Shown: positions 27,155-60,852 of the stretch, one piece after another | How positions within the stretch are numbered: the stretch's first letter is position 1 | Layout: every line of letters begins with the position of its first letter | Assembly (NCBI GenBank): GCA_024742755.1 | Contig: JANSXW010000003.1 | Location: 1 to 64,000, forward strand | DNA length: 64,000 nt | Source of the DNA: a bacterium | GTDB taxonomy: Bacteria > Bacteroidota > Bacteroidia > Chitinophagales > Saprospiraceae | Direction of reading: 5' to 3' | Translations under genes and position numbers: made by a program | Notes under the pieces: model-generated | The model's database searches: none | Told to the model about the DNA's origin: nothing | What the model saw: only the letters and a program-made list of their open reading frames with translations

Positions 27155-27238
27155 TGCCCGCGAGAGGACTCGAACCTCCACGTCCGTAAGGACACATGAA
27201 CCTGAATCATGCACGTCTACCAATTCCGCCACGCGGGC
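27155..27238 (-). tRNA. tRNA-Leu (anticodon CAG)
   Basis: 84 nt class II tRNA. Acceptor GCCCGCG pairs with CGCGGGC plus discriminator A; D-arm GCGGAATTGGTAGA; anticodon stem CATGA/TCATG around TTCAGGT gives anticodon CAG. A long variable arm (TGTCCTTACGGACGTG) and T-loop TTCGAGT complete it. CCA is not encoded. Reads CUG codons. Confidence 0.97.
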
Positions 27239-27289: not shown

Positions 27290-27373
27290 TACCGACGGCG
27301 GGAATCGAACCCGCACTCTGTTGCCAGAACTGGATTTTGAATCCAGCGCGTCTACCAATTCCGCCACGTCGGC
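27290..27373 (-). tRNA. tRNA-Leu (anticodon CAA)
   Basis: 84 nt class II tRNA. Acceptor GCCGACG pairs with CGTCGGT (one G-T wobble), discriminator A. Anticodon stem CTGGA/TCCAG around TTCAAAA gives anticodon CAA. Long variable arm TTCTGGCAACAGAGT; T-arm GCGGG-TTCGATT-CCCGC. CCA not encoded. Transcribed first, 51 nt before tRNA-Leu(CAG). Reads UUG codons. Confidence 0.97.
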
Positions 27374-49504: not shown

Positions 49505-51466
49505 ATGACCATTTTAAGATATACGTTTTTACTGGCCGGGCTGCTCTTGCTGGCACCCGCCCTGTTCGCGCAGGAAACCTTACAGGACCGCGAAAACCAA
49601 TACTATCAAATCCTTACGCTGCCGGTGCCCGAAGACATCCTGCTCGAGGTCGGCGGTTTGGCCACCTTGCCAGACGGCCGCATCGCCCTTTGCACCCGCC
49701 GGGGCGATGTATGGATGGTGGAAAACCCGGATATGTACGCTGGGGGCACCCCGCAGTACACCCTGTTTGCACAGGGGCTCCACGAGCCGCTTGGGCTGGC
49801 CTACCGGGATAACGCCCTTTATGCTGTACAACGGGGCGAGCTCACCCGCTTACGCGATACCAATGGCGATGGTGTGGCGGACCGGTACGAAACCGTCTTT
49901 GACTGGCCGCTGTCCGGGCATTACCACGAGTACTCCTACGGGCCTAAGTTTATGCCGGATGGCAGCATGATGGTCACTACCAACGTCGCATTCGGTGACG
50001 AAGAATGGTGGCGGGGCGAAAGCCGGGTGCCCTGGCGCGGCTGGACGATGAGGATCACCGGAGAAGGGGAGATGGAGCCCTGGGCCACAGGCATGCGTTC
50101 CCCCTGCGGGCTCGGTGTCTACGATGGCGAATTCTTTTATGATGACAATCAGGGTGATTGGATGGGCAGCGGCGCGATCTGGCATGTGGAAAAGGGCAGC
50201 TTCACCGGGCATCCTGCCGGGCTGAGGTGGTCCGAAGAAGCCAATTCGCCGGTATCTTTGACGCAGGAAGCGTTTTTTGCTAAAATAGACCGGCGGCGGG
50301 AAATGGAAAACGGGCGATACCTCAAGCCTTCCAATATCCCGGATGAAGCAGATCCCGATGTCCTCTTTGAAGTGCAGGAGGAACTCTCTCAGGTACAGGT
50401 GCCAGCCGTTTGGCTGCCCCACGGCATCCTGGGTATTTCCAACTCTGAAATCCTTGAAGATCGGACCAATGGGCAATTTGGGCCTTTCGCGGGGCAGCTC
50501 TTTGTTGGCGATCAGGGGCAAAGCAAGATTATGCGGGTGGTGCTGGAAAAGGTGAAGGGGCAATATCAGGGCGTTGCCTTTGATTTCCGCTCCGGTTTTC
50601 AGTCGGGCGTGCTGCGCATGGACTGGGGCAGCGATGGCTCCCTGTACGTGGGCGAGACCAACCGGGGCTGGGGCTCCGCAGGTACCAAAACCTCCGGTCT
50701 TGAGCGCCTGGTGTGGACGGGTTTAATGCCCTTCGAGATGAAAACAGTCCGTGCTATGCCTGATGGTTTCCAGATTGAATTCACAAAACCGGTAGACCCC
50801 AAAAGTGCGAAAGATCTGGACGCCTACTCCGGGCAAAGCTTTATTTACAAGTACCATCCGGTTTACGGCAGCCCGACGATCAAAAAAGAGCCCCTTGACA
50901 TTGAGGGCGTAGTGGTATCGGACGATGGGAAAACGGTACGCCTGCAGGTTACGAATATGCGGGAACATTTCATTCATCAGCTTAATGTGCCGGGGCTGCG
51001 TGCAGCTCAGGACACAAGCCTGCGAGTGTTGCACCCCACCGCGTACTACACCCTCAACGCCATCCCTGATGGTACCGCCCTGGCAGATGATGCCTGGATC
51101 CGCTACAGTTCTGCCGCTGAGCGTGCGAGGGAAGAAGCCAAAGCCCTGGCTGCCCTCAAAGCCCGCCGCGCCAGGGCTGCCCAGCAGGCAGCAGCTAAAA
51201 AAGCAGATGCCGTGCCGGCTTACGCTGAAATCGAGCCTCTGTTGATCCGAAATACCTGTACAGCCTGCCACAACCCCAATACCCGGCAGGTGGGCCCGGC
51301 GTTTAAGGAAATCGCAAAGCGGGGCTACACGCCGGAGCGTATCGTGGAGCTGATTTACAATCCGGAGCCTGAGAACTGGCCTGATTACACCCCAATGGCG
51401 CCCATGCCACAGGTGCCCCGGGATGAAGCACTGAAGATTGCCCGGTGGATCAATTCCCTGAAGTAG
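49505..51466 (+). CDS. Secreted beta-propeller dehydrogenase fused to cytochrome c
   Basis: 653 residues, signal peptide 1-23 (ending ALFAQ). Residues about 40-480 form a sugar/sorbosone-dehydrogenase-type (PQQ-like) beta-propeller: VGGLATLPDGRIALCTRRGD, GLHEPLGLAYRDNALYAVQR, LPHGILGISNSEI, GSLYVGETNRGWGSAGTKTS. An Ala/Lys-rich linker (about 535-575) leads to a class I cytochrome c domain: heme site C585TACH589 and axial Met631 or Met634 in YTPMAPMPQ. It would pass electrons from sugar oxidation to a periplasmic chain. Follows the DUF1080/PA14 gene by 2 nt. Confidence 0.85.
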   Translation: MTILRYTFLLAGLLLLAPALFAQETLQDRENQYYQILTLPVPEDILLEVGGLATLPDGRIALCTRRGDVWMVENPDMYAGGTPQYTLFAQGLHEPLGLAYRDNALYAVQRGELTRLRDTNGDGVADRYETVFDWPLSGHYHEYSYGPKFMPDGSMMVTTNVAFGDEEWWRGESRVPWRGWTMRITGEGEMEPWATGMRSPCGLGVYDGEFFYDDNQGDWMGSGAIWHVEKGSFTGHPAGLRWSEEANSPVSLTQEAFFAKIDRRREMENGRYLKPSNIPDEADPDVLFEVQEELSQVQVPAVWLPHGILGISNSEILEDRTNGQFGPFAGQLFVGDQGQSKIMRVVLEKVKGQYQGVAFDFRSGFQSGVLRMDWGSDGSLYVGETNRGWGSAGTKTSGLERLVWTGLMPFEMKTVRAMPDGFQIEFTKPVDPKSAKDLDAYSGQSFIYKYHPVYGSPTIKKEPLDIEGVVVSDDGKTVRLQVTNMREHFIHQLNVPGLRAAQDTSLRVLHPTAYYTLNAIPDGTALADDAWIRYSSAAERAREEAKALAALKARRARAAQQAAAKKADAVPAYAEIEPLLIRNTCTACHNPNTRQVGPAFKEIAKRGYTPERIVELIYNPEPENWPDYTPMAPMPQVPRDEALKIARWINSLK

Positions 51467-51510
51467 ATCGTCATACTTTTGCAAGGGATTGAAAATATTT
51501 TGCGGGCACA

Positions 51511-51543
51511 TTTGTTTTTCTAAATCAAATGCCGTTATCTTTG
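51511..51543 (+). promoter_or_regulatory. trp operon promoter
   Basis: TTTG (51511-51514), 21 nt, then TATCTTTG (51536-51543), both boxes of the Bacteroidota vegetative promoter. Transcription should begin near 51550, about 10 nt before the leader peptide start. Confidence 0.75.
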
Positions 51544-51560
51544 ACGCAAACACAATTGAA

Positions 51561-51626
51561 ATGAATTCTTTTACAAGCAACAACTGGTGGTGGTGGCACA
51601 ATCGTTCGGGAGACCGGGTGAAGTGA
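51561..51626 (+). CDS. trpL: Tryptophan operon leader peptide
   Basis: 21 codons plus stop (ATG 51561 to TGA 51624-51626), beginning MNSFTSNN and followed by four consecutive TGG Trp codons at 51585-51596, then HNRSGDRVK. Four Trp in 21 residues cannot be chance at this site. The ribosome would stall on these codons when charged tRNA-Trp is scarce. It precedes the antiterminator and terminator structures and trpE. Placement relative to the helices matches classical attenuation (see the findings). Confidence 0.9.
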   Translation: MNSFTSNNWWWWHNRSGDRVK

Positions 51627-51683
51627 CACGGCTATGCTTGTAAAATTAAATCAAGATAAAAAGCGGCTTGTCGATTCACTCGG
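51602..51683 (+). promoter_or_regulatory. trp attenuator: 1:2 hairpin and antiterminator
   Basis: Region 2, CCGGGTGAAGTGACA (51614-51628), can pair with region 3, TGTCGATTCACTCGG (51669-51683): 14 pairs, two of them G-U, one G-A mismatch. Region 3 contains the top of the terminator's 5' arm and its whole loop. Region 2 alternatively folds with TCGTTCGG (51602-51609) around a GAGA tetraloop (8 pairs, three wobbles). These are the two mutually exclusive states needed for attenuation. Pairings were read by eye; energies were not calculated. Confidence 0.8.
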
Positions 51684-51699
51684 CAAGCCGCTTTTCTGT
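51659..51699 (+). terminator. trp attenuator terminator
   Basis: Perfect 12-bp arms AAAAGCGGCTTG (51659-51670) and CAAGCCGCTTTT (51684-51695), extended inward by T-G wobble and CGA/TCG around TTCAC, followed by CTGTTT. It ends 23-27 nt before the trpE start. Confidence 0.92.
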
Positions 51700-51722
51700 T
51701 TCACCGCATAACGAAATCATTC

Positions 51723-53141
51723 ATGCCAACGCTTACGGACACGAAATTCAAAATCAAAACCACGGTCAGGCGCTACCTGGCGGATATCGTCACGCCAGTT
51801 ACGCTCTACCTCAAGGCGCGCGATCACTTTTCAGAACCGGTGCTGCTGGAGAACAACGACTTCCGCAACAAGGAGGACTGCTATTCCTTCATGGGGCTGG
51901 GCGTGCTGGGCAGCTTTCAGGTGCAGAACGGGCAAATCACCGAGCGTTGGCCAGACGGTACTACGGAGCAGCAGCGTGTAAATGACACCCTGACTGTACC
52001 GGCAGCCATGCAAAGTTTCCTAAAGCGTTTCGAGGTGGAACAGGATGCGGCCTATGCCGGCTTTAACGGGCTGATTGGCTACACCGCATTCGATGCCGTA
52101 CAGTATTTTGATACCCTGAAGTTTGATGCGGAAAAGCGGCGCTTCGATTTGCCGGATATCCGCTACAACCTTTACCAGATTATCATTGCAATTAATCACT
52201 TCAAGGACGAGCTTTATGTCCTGGAGAATTTGCCGGAAGGCACGCCCTCCCGTATGGAGGAGGTGGACCGGCTGATCAAAAGCCAGAAGTTTGCCACCCA
52301 TCATTTTCAGCGGGTTGGAGAAGAAGAAAGTAACCTTACCGATGAAGCATTTATGGAATTGGTGCGCATTGGGAAGCACCACTGCCAGGTTGGCGATGTC
52401 TTCCAGATCGTCTTCTCCCGGCAGTTTTCCCAGAAGTATACCGGCGACGATTTCAGTGTATACCGGGTGCTGCGCTCCATCAATCCTTCGCCCTATCTTT
52501 TCTACGCTGATTTTGGGAGTTACCGGATTTTTGGCTCCAGCCCGGAGACGCAGATGTCGGTAAATAAAGGCAAGGCAGTGGTCAATCCCATTGCAGGCAC
52601 GTACCGCCGCACGGGCGATCTGGAGGAGGATACCCGCAATGCGCTGGAACTGCGCGACGACCCCAAGGAAAATGCAGAGCACATCATGCTGGTCGACCTG
52701 GCCCGCAACGACCTGGGGCGCCACGCTACGAATGTCAAGGTGGAATCCCTCAAAGATATTCAGTACTTCAGCCATGTGATCCACCTGGTCTCCAAAGTGA
52801 CCGGAGAATTGGGGCCGGATACGAACCCGGTACAGGTCTTCGGTGATACTTTCCCCGCAGGTACATTATCTGGTGCGCCAAAGTACAAGGCGCTTGAGCT
52901 AATCAATCAATACGAAAACCAAAACCGCAGCTTTTACGGCGGCGCCCTGGGGTACATCAACTTCAACGGGGAGATGAACAACGCCATCGTCATCCGCTCT
53001 TTCCTGAGCAAGGACAACACCCTGTACTATCAGGCCGGTGCGGGCATCGTGGTGGCCAGTCAGGAAGCCAAAGAACTGCAGGAAGTCAATAACAAACTGG
53101 GCGCGCTCACCAAAGCGCTGCGCGAAGCCGAAAAACTCTAA
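51723..53141 (+). CDS. trpE: Anthranilate synthase component I
   Basis: 472 residues. Converts chorismate with ammonia (from TrpG) to anthranilate. Chorismate-binding domain with FQIVFSRQFSQKY, GSSPETQMSVNKG, PIAGTYRRTG, MLVDLARNDLGR and FPAGTLSGAPKYKALELI, all diagnostic. The N-terminal feedback segment reads LLEN (41-44) where the tryptophan-binding motif of enterobacterial TrpE is LLES, so the feedback site may be altered. First structural gene after the attenuator; trpG follows after 3 nt. Confidence 0.97.
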   Translation: MPTLTDTKFKIKTTVRRYLADIVTPVTLYLKARDHFSEPVLLENNDFRNKEDCYSFMGLGVLGSFQVQNGQITERWPDGTTEQQRVNDTLTVPAAMQSFLKRFEVEQDAAYAGFNGLIGYTAFDAVQYFDTLKFDAEKRRFDLPDIRYNLYQIIIAINHFKDELYVLENLPEGTPSRMEEVDRLIKSQKFATHHFQRVGEEESNLTDEAFMELVRIGKHHCQVGDVFQIVFSRQFSQKYTGDDFSVYRVLRSINPSPYLFYADFGSYRIFGSSPETQMSVNKGKAVVNPIAGTYRRTGDLEEDTRNALELRDDPKENAEHIMLVDLARNDLGRHATNVKVESLKDIQYFSHVIHLVSKVTGELGPDTNPVQVFGDTFPAGTLSGAPKYKALELINQYENQNRSFYGGALGYINFNGEMNNAIVIRSFLSKDNTLYYQAGAGIVVASQEAKELQEVNNKLGALTKALREAEKL

Positions 53142-53144
53142 ACC

Positions 53145-53741
53145 ATGAACATACTCGTTCTCGATAATTACGATTCCTTCACCTTCAACCTGGTGCAGTA
53201 CATTCAGGAATTGCTGGAGCAGGAAGTGACCGTGCGCCGCAATGACGCCATCAACCTCGACGAAGTGGATGGCTTTGATGCCATCGTACTTTCTCCCGGC
53301 CCCGGGCTGCCCGCAGAAGCCGGGATTATGCCGGAGCTGATTCAGCGCTATGCACCCATCAAGCCTATTCTCGGCGTTTGCCTCGGGCATCAGGCGATTG
53401 GTGAAGCCTTTGGCGCGGATTTGCTGAACCTTGAGGAAGTCTACCACGGCATTGAGACCCCCATTACCCGGGTAGTGGCCGATGCGCCCTTGTTCCTTGG
53501 GCTGCCGGATCAGTTTCAGGCCGGGCGCTACCACAGCTGGGTAGTGAAAAAAGAGAGCCTGCCGGCAGAACTGGAAGTAACCGCAGTGGACGACCGGGGC
53601 GAAATCATGGCGATGCGCCACATCGAATACAACGTGCATGGCATGCAGTTCCACCCGGAGTCCATCATGACACCGGAGGGCAAGCAGATGCTCGCCAACT
53701 TCTTCAAGCATTGTGTGAACCCTGAACCCGTAACTGTTTGA
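53145..53741 (+). CDS. trpG: Anthranilate synthase component II (glutamine amidotransferase)
   Basis: 198 residues. Supplies ammonia from glutamine to TrpE. Starts LVLDNYDSFTFNLVQYI; nucleophile Cys79 in GVCLGHQAIGEAFG; catalytic His and Glu in GMQFHPESI; LSPGPGLP oxyanion segment. Not fused to TrpD, as it is in some enteric bacteria. Starts 3 nt after trpE and ends 2 nt before trpD. May also serve folate synthesis (pabA role) as in other bacteria, which is an inference. Confidence 0.96.
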   Translation: MNILVLDNYDSFTFNLVQYIQELLEQEVTVRRNDAINLDEVDGFDAIVLSPGPGLPAEAGIMPELIQRYAPIKPILGVCLGHQAIGEAFGADLLNLEEVYHGIETPITRVVADAPLFLGLPDQFQAGRYHSWVVKKESLPAELEVTAVDDRGEIMAMRHIEYNVHGMQFHPESIMTPEGKQMLANFFKHCVNPEPVTV

Positions 53742-53743
53742 TT

Positions 53744-54736
53744 ATGAAAGCAATTCTTAACCGGCTTTTCAACCACGAACGGCTTTCAAGAGAGGAAGCC
53801 CGGCAGGTGCTGCTGGATATTTCCCACGCCCGCTACAATCAGGTGCAGGTAGCCAGTTTCATGACGGTCTTCCAAATGCGCCCGGTGGCGATTGCAGAGC
53901 TGCAGGGGTTCCGGGATGCACTGCTGGAACTCTGCGTGCCCTTTGAAGTGGGCGGCATGGAAACCATTGATATCGTCGGCACGGGAGGTGACGGCAAAAA
54001 CACTTTCAATATTTCCACCACTTCGGCCGTAGTCGTGGCTGGCGCAGGGTATAAAGTCACTAAGCATGGCAGCTACGGCGTATCCTCTTCGGTAGGGTCT
54101 TCCAATGTGCTGCAGGAGCTGGGGTACACCTTTACGAATGACATCGACACCCTGCGCCGTCAGCTCGATCAGGCGAACATTTGCTTTTTGCACGCGCCTT
54201 TATTCCACCCGGCAATGAAGGAAGTCGTGCCGGTGCGCAAGCAGTTGGGCATGAAGACCTTCTTCAATATGCTCGGCCCGCTGGTCAATCCGGTACAGCC
54301 CACACATCAGCTATTCGGGACGTTCGACCTGGAGCTGTCGCGCTTGTATCAGTACATCATGCAGGAAACCGGGCGGCGCTACAGCATCGTTTATGCCCTT
54401 GATGGGTACGATGAAGTGTCCCTGACCGGCCCTTTTCGGCTGCGCACCAATGAGTCCGACACCATTTTTACGCCTAAGGATTTAGAGGCACCGCAGCTGC
54501 AGCAGCAGGACTTGCACGGAGGGGATACGCCGGAAGAGGCTGCCCATATTTTCCGTTCGGTGCTTGAGGATACCTGCACGGAAGCCCAAAAAGCAGTCGT
54601 TGCAGCCAATGCCGGCCTTGCCATTCAGTGCCTGCGCCCGGAGCAAAGCCTTGCTGACTGCATGGCGGAAGCCCGGGAAAGCATAGAAAGTGGCAGGGCC
54701 CGGCAGACTCTAGACCAACTAATCACCATGAATTAA
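53744..54736 (+). CDS. trpD: Anthranilate phosphoribosyltransferase
   Basis: 330 residues from the ATG at 53744 (two residues shorter than the maximum frame). Transfers phosphoribose from PRPP to anthranilate. PRPP-binding GTGGDGKNTFNIS (79-91), metal segment KHGSYGVSSSVGSSN, FLHAPLFHPAM and LGPLVNPVQP, all typical. Cytoplasmic, dimeric in known homologues. Between trpG and trpC. Confidence 0.96.
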   Translation: MKAILNRLFNHERLSREEARQVLLDISHARYNQVQVASFMTVFQMRPVAIAELQGFRDALLELCVPFEVGGMETIDIVGTGGDGKNTFNISTTSAVVVAGAGYKVTKHGSYGVSSSVGSSNVLQELGYTFTNDIDTLRRQLDQANICFLHAPLFHPAMKEVVPVRKQLGMKTFFNMLGPLVNPVQPTHQLFGTFDLELSRLYQYIMQETGRRYSIVYALDGYDEVSLTGPFRLRTNESDTIFTPKDLEAPQLQQQDLHGGDTPEEAAHIFRSVLEDTCTEAQKAVVAANAGLAIQCLRPEQSLADCMAEARESIESGRARQTLDQLITMN

Positions 54737-54769
54737 ACCAAGCCCTAACCGGTCAATAAACAAGAAAAT

Positions 54770-55591
54770 ATGAACATCCTGGATAAAATAGTCGCTCACA
54801 AAAAGCAGGAGGTCGCTCAGCGCAAGGAACGCTACCCGGTCAAACTGCTGGAGCAAAGCATCTACTTCGAGACCCCGGTGGTCTCCCTGAAGCAGTACCT
54901 CCGCCGGCCTGACAAATCAGGGATCATTGCTGAATTTAAGCGGCGGTCCCCGTCCAAAGGCGACATTAACCCCTACGCATCCGTGGAGCGGGTATCGATT
55001 GGGTACATGCAGGCTGGGGCATCGGCGCTGTCTGTGCTCACCGATGGCGAGTTTTTTGGCGGTAAGAATGCCGACCTTACGGAAGCCCGGAAATTCAATT
55101 TTTGCCCCATTCTTCGCAAAGACTTCATCATCGACGAGTACCAATTGATTGAAGCCAAGTCGATTGGGGCGGATGCGGTGCTGCTCATCGCGGAATGCCT
55201 GGAGCCCGGCCGGTTGGCTGAGCTGGCGAAACAGGCCAAAGCCCTGGGGCTGGAAATTCTGATGGAAGTGCATAGCGCCGGGCAGTTGTCCAAATACGTG
55301 CACGAGATTGATGCCGTGGGGGTCAACAACCGCGACCTGACGACTTTTAATGTAGACATTGCCACCTCCCTCGAACTGATCGGGCAGTTGCCGGAGAACG
55401 TTGCCCGGGTATCCGAAAGCGGTATCAGTGACCCGCAGGTGGTGGCAGAGCTTCGGCATGCCGGGTATGAAGGCTTCCTGATTGGGGAGCACTTCATGAA
55501 GCAGGCAGAGCCTGGCAAGGCTTGTCAGGAATTTGTAAAACAAGTCCGGCACGTGGAAGCCCTGTTGGATGGCGCCATTGCTGAAAATTAA
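54770..55591 (+). CDS. trpC: Indole-3-glycerol-phosphate synthase
   Basis: 273 residues, TIM barrel. Cyclises carboxyphenylaminodeoxyribulose-5-phosphate to indole-3-glycerol phosphate. Signatures: AEFKRRSPSKGDI (catalytic Lys), ALSVLTDGEFFGG, LRKDFIIDEYQ, VLLIAECL, VGVNNRDLTTF and SESGI. Separate from trpF, unlike the fused enteric trpC. Follows trpD by 33 nt and precedes trpF by 11 nt. Confidence 0.96.
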   Translation: MNILDKIVAHKKQEVAQRKERYPVKLLEQSIYFETPVVSLKQYLRRPDKSGIIAEFKRRSPSKGDINPYASVERVSIGYMQAGASALSVLTDGEFFGGKNADLTEARKFNFCPILRKDFIIDEYQLIEAKSIGADAVLLIAECLEPGRLAELAKQAKALGLEILMEVHSAGQLSKYVHEIDAVGVNNRDLTTFNVDIATSLELIGQLPENVARVSESGISDPQVVAELRHAGYEGFLIGEHFMKQAEPGKACQEFVKQVRHVEALLDGAIAEN

Positions 55592-55602
55592 AGATAAACG
55601 GT

Positions 55603-56262
55603 ATGCAAATCAAAGTATGCGGCCTGCGCGAGCCGGAAAATATCCTGGAAGTGGCCCAATTGCCTGTGGACTGGCTGGGGTTTATCTTCTACGCCAATTC
55701 ACCGAGGGCGGTAAAACCCAAGCTGGCCAAATGGTTGGAAGGGCAGGAGGAAGCCCTTGCCGGCAAAAAGCGGGTAGGTGTTTTCGTGAATGCAGAAATT
55801 GAGGAGGTGCTCAATGCGGTGCATGACTTTCAGCTCGACCTGGTTCAGCTGCACGGCGAAGAGAGCCCGGAATACTGTCAGCTCATCCGCAACCTCATGG
55901 AAAGCACGTCTATGCGCAAAGCACAGTTGATGAAAGCTTTTCAGGTGGGAGATGTCTTTGACTTCAACCGGGTGTACCCTTACGCTGCCCACTGCGCTTA
56001 CGTGCTTTTTGACACCAAGGGCAAGCACTACGGTGGCAATGGCGAACAGTTCAATTGGGAGCTACTGCAGCAATATCAGGGCGTGACGCCTTTCTTCCTT
56101 AGCGGAGGCATTGGCCCGGAAGATGCCGCCGATGTGCTGGCATTCCGCCACCCGCAGCTTTACGGCATTGACCTGAATAGTAAATTCGAAACCGCTCCGG
56201 GCGTTAAAAACCCGGACTTGCTGAAACCCTTTCTCGAAACTTTGAAAAATGACACCCTATGA
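55603..56262 (+). CDS. trpF: Phosphoribosylanthranilate isomerase
   Basis: 219 residues, TIM barrel. Isomerises phosphoribosylanthranilate by Amadori rearrangement. Catalytic Cys in KVCGLREPEN, FVNAEIEEV, VQLHGEESPEYC, and the phosphate-binding C-terminus LSGGIGPEDAADV with IDLNSKFETAPGVKN. Overlaps trpB by 4 nt (ATGA), so coupled translation. Confidence 0.94.
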   Translation: MQIKVCGLREPENILEVAQLPVDWLGFIFYANSPRAVKPKLAKWLEGQEEALAGKKRVGVFVNAEIEEVLNAVHDFQLDLVQLHGEESPEYCQLIRNLMESTSMRKAQLMKAFQVGDVFDFNRVYPYAAHCAYVLFDTKGKHYGGNGEQFNWELLQQYQGVTPFFLSGGIGPEDAADVLAFRHPQLYGIDLNSKFETAPGVKNPDLLKPFLETLKNDTL

Positions 56263-57455
56263 TCGCAGTGGATGAAAGAGGCTACTACGGAGAGTTTGGC
56301 GGGGCTTACATACCCGAAATGCTCTACCCAAATGTTGAAGAGCTCCGGCAGCGGTACCTGGAGATTATGCAGGAGGATATCTTTCAAAAGCAGTTCCACC
56401 GCTTGCTGCGCGATTATGTGGGGCGACCCTCGCCTTTGTATCTGGCAGAACGGCTTTCGGAGCATTACAATACCAATATCTACCTGAAGCGGGAAGACCT
56501 CAACCACACCGGGGCCCACAAGATCAACAATACGATCGGGCAAATCCTGCTGGCTAAGCGGTTGGGCAAAAAGCGTATCATTGCTGAGACGGGTGCCGGG
56601 CAACACGGTGTGGCTACGGCTACCGTCTGCGCCCTGATGGGCATGCCCTGCGTGGTCTACATGGGCGCTGTGGACATCAAGCGGCAGGCTCCCAACGTGT
56701 CCCGCATGCGTATGCTTGGGGCAGAGGTGCGCCCGGCAGAAAGCGGCAGCCGAACGCTCAAGGACGCCACCAACGAAGCCATCCGGGACTGGATTAATAA
56801 TCCCGTAGACACGCACTACATCATCGGTTCTGCCGTGGGCCCGCACCCGTATCCGGACATGGTCGCCCGTTTTCAATCGGTCATCAGCGAGGAAATGAAG
56901 TGGCAGCTGGAGGAACACACTGGCAGTACAAAACCAAACGCTGTGATCGCCTGCGTTGGGGGCGGAAGTAATGCCGCTGGTGCTTATTTCCACTACCTGA
57001 ATGAGCCCGATGTGCGCCTTATTGCGGTTGAAGCCGCTGGCAAAGGCGTACACTCTGGCGAATCGGCAGCGACGAGCGTATTGGGCACTAAAGGCATTAT
57101 TCACGGCAGCCGGACGTTGCTTATGCAGACCAAAGACGGGCAAATTGTGGAGCCCTATTCCCTTTCTGCCGGGCTGGATTATCCCGGGATTGGGCCTATG
57201 CACGCCCACCTCATTGCGAGCGGACGGGCAGAAGCCATTAGCATTACGGATGAGGATGCGCTTAAAGCCGCCTACTTCCTGTCGAAGAAAGAGGGTATTA
57301 TCCCGGCACTGGAGACTTCCCATGCGTTTGCTGCTCTGGACGTTATGGAATACAACAGCAGCGATGTCATCGTCATCTGCCTATCTGGCCGGGGCGACAA
57401 AGACCTGGAGACCTTCATCAATCATTTTGACGACTACCAAAACGGAGACTTATGA
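56259..57455 (+). CDS. trpB: Tryptophan synthase beta chain
   Basis: 398 residues. Joins indole with serine to give tryptophan. PLP lysine Lys88 in NHTGAHKINNTIGQ, GAGQHGVATATVCAL, phosphate loop CVGGGSNAAGAY, and HSGESAATSVLG. Start codon overlaps the trpF stop and its stop overlaps the trpA start by 4 nt. Substrate indole is channelled from TrpA. Length normal for the family. Antisense frames across it, including one of 387 codons, are shadows. Confidence 0.97.
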   Translation: MIAVDERGYYGEFGGAYIPEMLYPNVEELRQRYLEIMQEDIFQKQFHRLLRDYVGRPSPLYLAERLSEHYNTNIYLKREDLNHTGAHKINNTIGQILLAKRLGKKRIIAETGAGQHGVATATVCALMGMPCVVYMGAVDIKRQAPNVSRMRMLGAEVRPAESGSRTLKDATNEAIRDWINNPVDTHYIIGSAVGPHPYPDMVARFQSVISEEMKWQLEEHTGSTKPNAVIACVGGGSNAAGAYFHYLNEPDVRLIAVEAAGKGVHSGESAATSVLGTKGIIHGSRTLLMQTKDGQIVEPYSLSAGLDYPGIGPMHAHLIASGRAEAISITDEDALKAAYFLSKKEGIIPALETSHAFAALDVMEYNSSDVIVICLSGRGDKDLETFINHFDDYQNGDL

Positions 57456-58243
57456 GCCGATTGCAATCGCTTTTCGAGCGCAAAAAACAGGATGCTCTCA
57501 ACGTCTACTTCACCGCCGGCTATCCTGCCCTGGATGATACGGGCAAGATCATCCGCGCATTGGATAATGCCGGCGTGGACCTGATTGAGGTAGGCATGCC
57601 CTATTCCGACCCACTGGCAGACGGGCCCACGATACAGGAGAGCGGTCAGCAGGCTATTCAGAATGGGATGACCCTGCCGCTTTTGTTTGAGCAAATCGCA
57701 GAAGCCCGGGAACACACCGATATCCCGCTGGTGCTGATGGGCTATTTCAATCCGGTGATGCAGTACGGAGAACAGCGCTTCTTCGACCGCTGTGCAGCGG
57801 CAGGCATTGACGGGCTCATCCTGCCGGACCTGCCGGTCTACGAGTACGAAAACTTCTACCGGGAAGGCATTGAAAAAGCGGGGCTGGACATCAGCTTCCT
57901 CATCACCCCACAGACGAGCGACGAGCGCATCCGTCAAATTGATGCATTGAGCACCGGATTTGTCTACATGGTTTCCAATTCTGCCATCACTGGAGCCAAA
58001 TCAGGTATTTCTGAGGAGCAGATCGCCTATTTCGAGCGGATCCGGAGCATGCAACTGGAAAGCCCGCGCCTGATCGGGTTTGGTATTTCCAGCCATGAAA
58101 CCTTCCAAACGGCTTGTCAGTATGCCAATGGGGCGATCATCGGCAGTGCCTACATCCGGGCACTTGGTGAAGGGCAGCCCGTGGAGGAAGCCACCCATCA
58201 GTTTGTACAACAAATTCTCAAAACACCCATCCCTCAAGACTAA
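57452..58243 (+). CDS. trpA: Tryptophan synthase alpha chain
   Basis: 263 residues, TIM barrel. Splits indole-3-glycerol phosphate to indole, which passes to TrpB. Catalytic Glu46 and Asp57 in LIEVGMPYSDPLADGPTIQ, matching Glu49 and Asp60 of the E. coli enzyme; later VYMVSNSAITGAKSGISE and phosphate-binding LIGFGISSHET. 4-nt overlap with trpB; the DAHP synthase gene starts 3 nt later. Confidence 0.97.
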   Translation: MSRLQSLFERKKQDALNVYFTAGYPALDDTGKIIRALDNAGVDLIEVGMPYSDPLADGPTIQESGQQAIQNGMTLPLLFEQIAEAREHTDIPLVLMGYFNPVMQYGEQRFFDRCAAAGIDGLILPDLPVYEYENFYREGIEKAGLDISFLITPQTSDERIRQIDALSTGFVYMVSNSAITGAKSGISEEQIAYFERIRSMQLESPRLIGFGISSHETFQTACQYANGAIIGSAYIRALGEGQPVEEATHQFVQQILKTPIPQD

Positions 58244-58246
58244 ACT

Positions 58247-59257
58247 ATGATCATTCAACTCGAACCCAATATAAAAGCCGACCAATTGCAGCGGCTGGAA
58301 GAACAACTCGACGCCATCCGCTACAGCACTACGCGCGTAACCACGCAGTTTGCGGACTACATCATTGGCGTCGGCAAAGCTGAATTCGATATCCGCAGCA
58401 TTGGTACCCTGCCTGGCATACGCGATATCCACCGGGTGAGCGACGCCTATAAGCTTGTTTCCAAAAAGTGGAAGGTGGAAGACACCGTCATCGACCTTGG
58501 CGATGGGATTCAGCTGGGTACCGGTCATTTTGGTATCATGGCGGGCCCCTGTTCGATAGAATCAGAGGAGCAGATTGAAAAGACCATCACGCACCTGCAG
58601 CAGGAAGGCGTGCGCATTATGCGGGGCGGCGTGTACAAGCCCCGCAGTTCGCCCTATTCCTTCCGGGGGCTGGGCATCGATGGATTGAAAATGTGGTACA
58701 AACGCACCCGGGAAGCCGGTATCAAAATCATCACGGAAGTCATGATGGTGGAGCAAATCGAAGCCATGGCAGACTATGTGGATGTCTTTCAGGTGGGGGC
58801 ACGTAACTCCCAGAATTTCAACCTGCTGGACGCTCTGGGTGAAGTGGATAAACCGGTGTTGCTCAAGCGTGGCATATCCGGTACGATTGATGAGTTGCTG
58901 CAGGCCGCTGAGTACATCTTCTCTAATGGAAATGAACGCGTCATGCTGTGTGAGCGAGGCATCCGCAGCTATGAAACCGCCTACCGGAATACCATGGATG
59001 TCAACGCCATCGCCATGCTCAAGGAAAAGACGCATCTTCCGGTGATTGCTGATCCATCCCACGGTATCGGGCTGCGCCGTTATGTCGACAAGATTGCGCT
59101 GGCTTCCATCATGGCAGGTGCCGATGGAGTCATCATGGAAGTCCACGAACAGCCCGAAAAAGCTTTCTCGGACGGGCAACAGACGTTGAGTTTTCCGGAG
59201 GCAGCACGGTTGTACCGGCGCATGCGGCAGGCTTATGAGTTGCGGGAGACTTTTTAA
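58247..59257 (+). CDS. aroF: 3-deoxy-7-phosphoheptulonate synthase (type I beta)
   Basis: 336 residues. Condenses PEP with erythrose-4-phosphate in the first step of the shikimate pathway. N-terminal ferredoxin-like regulatory domain (about 1-75, MIIQLEPNIKADQLQRLEEQ, HRVSDAYKLVSKKWK) as in Thermotoga-type DAHP synthases, then MAGPCSIESEEQI, GGVYKPRSSPYSFRGLG, MQVEQ-like VMMVEQIE, RNSQNFNLL and PVIADPSHGIGLRRYV. The regulatory domain suggests feedback control by aromatic amino acids. Last gene of the trp operon, 3 nt after trpA, so it falls under the same attenuator. Confidence 0.94.
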   Translation: MIIQLEPNIKADQLQRLEEQLDAIRYSTTRVTTQFADYIIGVGKAEFDIRSIGTLPGIRDIHRVSDAYKLVSKKWKVEDTVIDLGDGIQLGTGHFGIMAGPCSIESEEQIEKTITHLQQEGVRIMRGGVYKPRSSPYSFRGLGIDGLKMWYKRTREAGIKIITEVMMVEQIEAMADYVDVFQVGARNSQNFNLLDALGEVDKPVLLKRGISGTIDELLQAAEYIFSNGNERVMLCERGIRSYETAYRNTMDVNAIAMLKEKTHLPVIADPSHGIGLRRYVDKIALASIMAGADGVIMEVHEQPEKAFSDGQQTLSFPEAARLYRRMRQAYELRETF

Positions 59258-59343: not shown

Positions 59344-60852
59344 ATGAGTCCACTTGAAAAAGCGAGCGAAACAGGGTTATTGTTTGCTAAACAGTCAGAG
59401 AAAGCTCACAAAAAAAAGCTAGGACAATATTTCACTTCTAGCTTAGTAGCAAAATTTATGGCGTCGTTAGTGGATGAAATCCCAGGAAAACGATTAAGAA
59501 TATGCGATCCAGGAGCAGGACATGGGATATTAAGCTGCGCACTAGTTGAAAGACTCGTCAATTTGGGTGCTGAAGAGATTTTTATTGACGTATTCGAGGT
59601 TGATAAAACTATACTATCCCTTTTAGAGAGTAATCTAACTTACCTCAGAGAATTTTATAGTAAGCAGTCAATTGTAATTAAGTTTAGGGTTTTCAATGAA
59701 AACTTTCTAATCTGGGCAAATAAAAACTATCTCGAACTTCGGGAAAGCTATGATTACGTAATCTCAAATCCTCCGTATTTCAAGTTGAATAAGGGGGATG
59801 AAAATATTCAAGCCGTCTCTTTTTTACTTGAAGGAGTGACGAATATTTATGCTGGTTTTATCGCAATGGGGATTAAACTTACAAAGATATCCGGAGAAAC
59901 GATATTTATTGTTCCAAGGAGTTTTTCTTCCGGACTATATTTTAAAAAGCTAAGGCAGTTTTTCTTCCGGGAAACAAGGTTAAAACATGTACACCTTTTT
60001 CAATCTAGGACTGAAGCATTTAAAGAAGACAAGGTTTTACAGGAAACATTAATATTTAAGGCAAATAATAGGGAGGGAGTACGCACAAAAATTACAACAA
60101 GTGAAGGTATAAAAGACTTAGGCTTTACATGCAAAAGTTTCAATTATAATATTTCAGAACTAATTGAACTGGATTCGGATCATAAAATACTTCATCTCCC
60201 TACAAGCCAAGAAGACTATGAAGTTATCAAGATGTTGAAAACCCTTAAATATAGATTGATTGATCATCAAATCAAGGTTTCAACCGGTAGAGTGGTAGCT
60301 TTCAGGTCAAAAAATAACTTAAAGACTGATAATGCAGATAACCGTTACGTACCACTTATTTGGAATTTTAATGTAAAAAAATACTCAATTAATTGGCCTG
60401 TAATACAAGATAAAAAGCCTCAGTATATCGATAGAGGTAATAATAAAATACTTGTGCCGTGTCAGAATTATGTGGTTCAGCGAAGGTTTAGCGCAAAAGA
60501 AGATAAAAGTAGAATTGTTTGTGCGCCATTTGTTGGCAAAGAGTACAAGTGTGTTGAAGTTGGCTTTGAAAATAAAACAAATTTCATGTATAAATTAGGG
60601 GGGGAAATGTCAATTGATCTTGTATATGGCTTATGTGTTTTGTTTAATTCGTCGATCTATGATCGTTATTTTCGGATAATCAATGGTAATATAAATGTTT
60701 CGGCTACAGAAATGGCTAATATGCCAATTCCCTGTTTACAAATAATTAATTATCTCGGAGCGATGTATATCGAAAATGAAAATATAGTATTTAACGAGGA
60801 GCTGATTAAGACAATTCTTTTTTCCGGAAAAGCCGAGAAGATAATATCATGA
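59344..60852 (+). CDS. Type II DNA adenine-N6 methyltransferase
   Basis: 502 residues, strongly AT-rich relative to the trp operon. Class gamma-like (Eco57I/TaqI/BsuBI-type) adenine methylase: motif X LGQYFTSSLVAKFMASLV (27-44), motif I ICDPGAGHGILSCAL (53-67, DPxxGxG), acidic motif II IDVFEVDKT, motif IV NPPY (142-145), and target-recognition region from about 290 (IKVSTGRVVAFRSKNN, then QNYVVQRRF). Protects host DNA from the adjacent nuclease. Overlaps the next gene by 4 nt. Cytoplasmic. Confidence 0.9.
   Translation: MSPLEKASETGLLFAKQSEKAHKKKLGQYFTSSLVAKFMASLVDEIPGKRLRICDPGAGHGILSCALVERLVNLGAEEIFIDVFEVDKTILSLLESNLTYLREFYSKQSIVIKFRVFNENFLIWANKNYLELRESYDYVISNPPYFKLNKGDENIQAVSFLLEGVTNIYAGFIAMGIKLTKISGETIFIVPRSFSSGLYFKKLRQFFFRETRLKHVHLFQSRTEAFKEDKVLQETLIFKANNREGVRTKITTSEGIKDLGFTCKSFNYNISELIELDSDHKILHLPTSQEDYEVIKMLKTLKYRLIDHQIKVSTGRVVAFRSKNNLKTDNADNRYVPLIWNFNVKKYSINWPVIQDKKPQYIDRGNNKILVPCQNYVVQRRFSAKEDKSRIVCAPFVGKEYKCVEVGFENKTNFMYKLGGEMSIDLVYGLCVLFNSSIYDRYFRIINGNINVSATEMANMPIPCLQIINYLGAMYIENENIVFNEELIKTILFSGKAEKIIS

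Follow-up and report, generated by a model that had tools for sequence, protein, structure and literature searches.

The trp leader of E. coli, in which the ribosome that translates a short peptide decides between alternative RNA structures, carries two Trp codons, and the comparative survey that Lopatovskaya et al. are said to have made in 2010 may, by its title, already include cases of the present kind. In the Bacteroidota the closest described system is the "Bacteroid-trp" family (RF01692), which Table 1 of Weinberg et al. (2010; PMC2864571) lists as a likely RNA with a likely cis-regulatory role, and which Rfam describes as "Bacteroidete tryptophan peptide leader RNA". A passage in PMC6414381 compares the Bacteroid-Trp RNA with the E. 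coli leader and reports its conservation ahead of the trp operon of Flavobacterium psychrophilum, a passage in PMC9723704 speaks of strong clues that amino-acid operons of F. psychrophilum are preceded by leader-peptide attenuators, and short open reading frames (ORFs) in Bacteroides 5' UTRs are called reminiscent of leader peptides in a part of PMC7366714. The relevant works returned by a literature search are those cited here. A preliminary description of the present locus had implied that such attenuation is rare in the Bacteroidota, which does not hold, as Rfam has listed the peptide leader from 2010 onwards and the F. psychrophilum papers, in the passages just named, mention it or the mechanism. 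The leader analyzed here is a new and divergent case of an already known kind of Bacteroidota trp leader, and is not new in kind.

The locus occupies positions 51511-51701 of the window (the whole stretch of DNA analyzed, 64 kb in length) and lies ahead of the operon trpEGDCFBA-aroF; the genome is of the Phaeodactylibacter type (Saprospiraceae, Bacteroidota; source assembly 6.95 Mb). The TrpE of Phaeodactylibacter xiamenensis is 97% identical to that of the window, and the remaining near TrpE loci belong to the Saprospiraceae or are labelled Bacteroidota. The locus is very probably a ribosome-mediated transcription attenuator of the E. coli trpL type which senses charged tRNA-Trp and which would make read-through into the operon dependent on Trp. 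The component features are listed in Table 1. Beyond the operon, an ORF at 59344-60852 (+) contains an NPPY motif and looks by eye like an N6-adenine DNA methylase.

Table 1. Features of the trp leader and operon, in window coordinates.
Feature	Position	Strand	Basis or detail
Bacteroidota-type promoter candidate	51511-51543	+	TTTG 51511-51514, 21 nt, TATCTTTG 51536-51543; read directly
Leader peptide ORF, 21 codons, MNSFTSNNWWWWHNRSGDRVK	51561-51626	+	ATG 51561-51563, stop TGA 51624-51626
Control codons, four consecutive Trp codons (TGG x4)	51585-51596	+	Read directly; Trp-run leaders in relatives
Outer 1:2 helix	51569-51645	+	51569-51579 with 51635-51645; MFE fold, partner swapping
Inner 1:2 hairpin, 8 pairs, GAGA loop (pause or preemptor hairpin)	51602-51621	+	51602-51609 with 51614-51621; fold
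Region 2, 5' strand of antiterminator, contains stop codon	51614-51628	+	Duplex calculation, covariation
Region 3, 3' strand of antiterminator	51669-51683	+	Spans terminator upper 5' arm, loop and upper 3' arm
Intrinsic terminator	51659-51701	+	51659-51670 with 51684-51695, then UUUUCUGUUU overlapping the stem end
Regulated operon trpE-trpA	51723-58243	+	Directly downstream of leader
trpE	51723-53141	+	Best NCBIfam hit below its cut-off; operon context also used
trpG	53145-53741	+	Curated NCBIfam cut-off reached
trpD	53738-54736	+	Curated NCBIfam cut-off reached
trpC	54770-55591	+	Curated NCBIfam cut-off reached
trpF	55603-56262	+	Best NCBIfam hit below its cut-off; operon context also used
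trpB	56259-57455	+	Curated NCBIfam cut-off reached
trpA	57452-58243	+	Curated NCBIfam cut-off reached
DAHP synthase gene (aroF-type), operon end	58247-59257	+	

The leader ORF, its four Trp codons (codons 9-12) and its stop codon lie exactly where the preliminary description had placed them, and the promoter letters that it had read upstream, TTTG-N21-TATCTTTG, are present. A sigma-70 promoter scan, which does not cover the Bacteroidota promoter type, called no site at the locus. Transcription is predicted to start near 51550. Of 123 representative leaders, 73 have a TAnnTTTG box no more than 60 nt from their ATG, compared to 4.7% of shuffled 60-mers, and 62 of these 73 also have TTG at the -33 distance; in the other 50 of the 123 there is no such box near the ATG. 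In 24 of the 73 box-bearing leaders no more than 8 nt separate the end of the box from the ATG, so that nearly leaderless mRNAs are predicted for these; the corresponding gap in the window's leader is 17 nt. None of the Shine-Dalgarno-like strings tested occurs at -18 to -4 in any of the 123 representatives, and the window leader likewise has no SD-like motif. The string TGGTGGTGG starts at three places on the + strand of the 64-kb window, two of them within the trp leader, while the third (22456) has no ATG in reach.

The RNA of positions 51550-51700 folds with a minimum free energy of -57.3 kcal/mol (z -7.06), and none of 200 shuffled sequences folds as low. The inner 1:2 hairpin with the GAGA tetraloop of the preliminary description is recovered with 8 pairs, and the fold also contains an outer 1:2 helix, absent from that description, which encloses the Trp codons. 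The antiterminator, described as having 14 pairs, does pair at 14 of 15 positions, two of them G-U, and the duplex of region 2 with the terminator has an energy of -25.9 kcal/mol (empirical p of about 0.005 when region 2 is shuffled 200 times). The possibility that the antiterminator touches the terminator apex alone, leaving the lower stem free, was rejected because the duplex calculation shows region 2 entering the 5' arm, where it forms a mean of 7.3 pairs in 104 leaders and 5.9 in 28 leaders selected by means of RF01692. The antiterminator and terminator are mutually exclusive, since they share the strand 51669-51683.

The claim of a terminator with a T tract stands for the stem but is weakened for the tract: the perfect 12-bp stem lies where it had been placed and extends to 16 pairs in the predicted fold, while the U-tract (UUUUCUGUUU, 51692-51701) is short, its first four U can pair with AAAA, and a generic terminator scan called no site at the locus. 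The idea that this genome uses the stem GCGGCUUG as a stereotyped terminator was rejected, because the exact hairpin pattern occurs at two sites only in the assembly; the second hairpin with the GCGGCUUG/CAAGCCGC outer stem (G000:C205:9134-9163, locus L215) is an ordinary terminator between other genes.

In the proposed mechanism, transcription would start near 51550 and a ribosome would begin the leader ORF. When Trp-tRNA is scarce, the ribosome would stall at codons 9-12 and cover region 1, so that region 2 is left free and can pair with 51669-51683 once that segment leaves the RNA polymerase, which would block the terminator and allow the trp operon to be transcribed. When Trp-tRNA is plentiful, the ribosome would reach the stop codon inside region 2 and mask that region, and the terminator at 51659-51695 would form; it would form as well if the ribosome has gone or was never loaded, with the 1:2 structure then holding region 2. 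The anatomy, its conservation, the covariation of antiterminator and terminator and the switching in silico are results of the present analysis, while we infer the start site, the translation of the leader, the relative timing of ribosome and polymerase, and the response to Trp.

Switching of this kind is obtained when the RNA is folded with an assumed ribosome footprint, which covers 18 nt upstream and 13 nt downstream of the first base of the A-site codon, and with RNA ends at 51684 or 51690, which approximate the RNA exposed when the polymerase is near the U-tract. With the ribosome at any of the four Trp codons, the antiterminator forms at both RNA ends with a best pair probability of 0.88-1.0, while with no ribosome, or with the ribosome at the stop codon, it falls to 0.01 or less and the terminator reaches 1.0 by 51690. 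The folding thus agrees, for RNA ending at 51684-51690, with the earlier statement that a stalled ribosome frees region 2 and a ribosome at the stop codon covers it. When the RNA extends to 51699, the terminator wins in every state, that with a stalled ribosome included, so the switch must be kinetic; and because the antiterminator wins only before the 3' arm of the terminator has fully emerged, the first ribosome would have to follow the RNA polymerase closely. The spacing on which the mechanism depends is found in other leaders as well: the median distance from the first Trp codon to the start of region 2 is 23 nt in 104 leaders (25 nt in the 28 RF01692-selected leaders), and the stop codon lies within region 2 in 96 of the 104 and 27 of the 28.

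The conservation of the leader was evaluated in genomes with a TrpE at least 46% identical to that of the window, of which there are 47 including the window's own; 46 were used, with the fragmentary TrpE of G002 omitted. A Trp-rich leader precedes trpE in 45 of these 46 loci (the window included), and the sole miss, L026, is truncated by the end of its contig, with 134 nt available upstream. Among 80 named loci, which overlap with this set, 73 have a leader with Trp-Trp or three Trp; one of the 80, L092, has 35 nt of upstream sequence. The leader of L106 lies far upstream (-572 to -425), beyond the 450 nt covered in one scan. In six loci (L074, L077, L079-L081 and L085), which form a group that contains Haliscomenobacter, the Trp run is replaced by Trp-Arg-Trp in the leader MNLFITWRWRFSSSKG, and the terminator is still kept. 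Pooling with loci chosen by means of RF01692 (L111-L143) gave 159 loci with 136 distinct upstream regions, and both a leader and a called hairpin are found in 132 of the 136 (the exceptions are L026, L092, L106 and L119), where the hairpin caller takes the best-scoring candidate at each locus and single calls may be wrong. At L119 (1400-1700, reverse strand) trpB, identified by similarity to the TrpB of the window, is the first gene of the operon and is followed by trpE; a Trp-Trp leader and a terminator-like hairpin stand before trpB, so the leader goes with the head of the operon and not with trpE.

In a sample of 198 genomes of the phylum, 49 have a TrpE at E 1e-90 or better, and all 49, drawn from 10 families of which two lie outside the class of the window, have a leader with the pattern W.?W (WWW in 43). 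Short ORFs of this kind are infrequent by chance, with WWW in 4 and W.?W in 50 of 954 control windows, to be read with the difference in scope that the controls covered 330 nt and ATG starts only, while 46 of the 49 leaders were sought within 506 nt and those of L001, L022 and L027 come from the scan of 450 nt. A search of a plasmid collection gave no match.

Covariation was evaluated in an alignment, made by sequence alone, of 70 of 72 non-redundant Saprospiraceae-type leaders (two were omitted for length), using slid registers, shuffles and permutations as controls, none of which fully removes relatedness. For the antiterminator, 82.0% of cells are paired, compared to 29.0-48.0% when the strands are slid, double-changed cells number 57 compared to 9.5 in shuffles, and 9 of 13 pairs have double changes compared to 4.8 in shuffles; further pair types are not above shuffles (102/500). 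For the terminator, the corresponding values are 96.2% compared to 29.0-52.2%, and 91 double-changed cells compared to 21.8, with double changes in 13 of 16 pairs. The inner 1:2 helix has 65.8% of cells paired compared to 38.7-48.9% when slid, but it is weakly supported, because its double-changed pairs are not above shuffles (233/500) and two slid versions have clearly more double-changed cells than the true register. When partners were swapped among 98 of the 132 leaders, the pairing of region 2 with the terminator and that of the outer helix were both weakened, and none of 5000 permutations was as low; evaluated against shuffles of its own region 2, the duplex reaches p 0.05 in 93 of the 132 leaders and does not in 39.

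The preliminary description had named a lack of conservation of the leader ORF and stems in relatives as evidence that would count against it; in relatives the leader and stems are conserved, the inner 1:2 helix weakly, and the antiterminator and terminator covary, so the comparative half of that test came out in its favour. The proposed fit to an E. coli-type mechanism is likewise supported by the cognate operon downstream, the conservation, the covariation, the in-silico switching and the His-rich leader with a terminator-like hairpin before hisG in the same genome. Across the antiterminator the RNA sequence is conserved while leaders differ in the frame in which they read it: of 72 representatives, 28 have the core GRGUGA within the leader in frame 1 and 3 in frame 2, 12 use its UGA as their stop, 6 carry the core beyond the stop, and in 23 the exact core is missing. 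Selection therefore acts on the RNA, and the Arg-Val-Arg/Lys end of many leaders may best be read as a by-product of RNA pairing.

A leader of another specificity is seen in the same genome, where a His-rich ORF, MIINNWHHHVHHFPLPGSEWWNRA, lies about 95 nt upstream of hisG and is followed by a strong terminator-like hairpin (L206, reverse strand 1174-1248; G000:C192). Leaders with three or more consecutive His codons occur at all five hisG loci (L206-L210), which were found in 5 of 14 genomes searched, and the sequences suggest a candidate his attenuator before hisG in this genome and at all five loci. Ile/Leu/Val leaders were sought around ilvB (runs of 5), in the 4.2 kb before it (runs of 4) and before ilvD/ilvB, and none was found.

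Other explanations of the locus must be weighed against attenuation. The leader might be translated while control is mainly translational or operates via ribosome re-initiation, in which case access to trpE would be regulated instead of early termination. PMC4833913 puts forward re-initiation as a way in which leader genes increase translation of the gene downstream, and gives a distance peak for Bacteroidetes, but that peak lies at 11-14 bp while the leader stop here lies 96 nt before trpE. Since re-initiation also leaves a conserved terminator and a covarying antiterminator unexplained, we consider this explanation improbable.

T-box RNAs, TRAP-like protein binding and tryptophan riboswitches control trp genes in other phyla, and this counts in favour of the idea that another Trp device operates here and the leader ORF is incidental. 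Against it, the 11 matches that Rfam gives in 51450-51800 at E up to 10 include no T-box and no tryptophan riboswitch, the only trp-related match being RF01692, and Trp-run leaders are present in all of the sampled TrpE-bearing genomes, so that such a device is very hard to credit. The hairpin might instead be the terminator of the upstream gene (49505-51466), which ends 94 nt ahead of the leader, with a Trp-rich ORF arising beside it by chance, and the presence of the same stem core in the ordinary terminator at G000:C205 fits this. Yet conservation and covariation extend over many genera and families, the hairpin follows the leader and adjoins trpE, and WWW is as infrequent in the control windows as reported above; the explanation has almost no likelihood left and is already contradicted by the comparison of sequences. 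For the broader proposal that trp leader attenuation is ancestral and near-universal in Bacteroidota with a trp operon, that it operates on SD-less and often nearly leaderless mRNAs, and that the first ribosome trails the polymerase closely, at least in the leader, we hold the chances to be evenly balanced.

Attenuation at this locus can be placed with respect to the known systems as follows. At the gathering threshold, Rfam reports for the window two tRNAs only, a tandem pair at 27155-27238 and 27290-27373 on the - strand (RF00005, 51.3 and 62.3 bits), and nothing at the leader. In a permissive scan RF01692 scores 30.9 bits at the leader, below its gathering cut-off of 49, in a full-length alignment to 51541-51672 that takes in the start codon, the Trp codons and the 5' arm of the terminator (GGCUUGUC). 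The two systems share the phylum, but they differ in that the RF01692 model ends inside the terminator 5' arm and, by its structure line, pairs neither the terminator nor the antiterminator. Sub-threshold matches to RF01692 occur in 5 of 15 relatives' loci, none of which exceeds the cut-off, and with strict filters applied the cut-off is reached by one genome among the 61 from the window's family and by 27 among the 296 from the phylum. A reciprocal model, R1, built from 70 Saprospiraceae-type leaders, matches the leader in all 29 RF01692-selected loci L115-L143 at E 7.3e-6 or better, and it is by these matches that the window-type leaders are seen to be homologous to RF01692. In the window's own genome R1 matches the trp leader strongly (E 3.2e-24), while the reverse strand of this leader and the C205 terminator follow with E values of 4.7e-4 or weaker. 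In L195 and L197-L202 (families f29, f23, f36 and f33) R1 matched nothing up to an E of 1, so it does not reach every family.

With the present work, a Bacteroidota attenuator that was known but has received little study is extended to a family largely missed by the curated model; the work also adds antiterminator and terminator structures, with covariation, that are missing from the Rfam model. The leader could also serve as a natural reporter for close coupling of transcription and translation in bacteria with SD-less leaders. It shares its phylum and its proposed mechanism with the F. psychrophilum trp leader, as that leader is characterized in the passages cited, which belongs to another family. 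The E. coli trp leader (RF00513, Trp_leader) gave no match in 51450-51800 at E up to 10, and it appears in one relative, L010, below threshold (23.3 bits, cut-off 41). The two leaders resemble each other in having Trp codons, a stop codon within region 2 and mutually exclusive 1:2, 2:3 and 3:4 pairings, while that of the window differs in its four Trp codons, its lack of an SD-like motif, its TAnnTTTG promoter and an antiterminator that spans the terminator loop.
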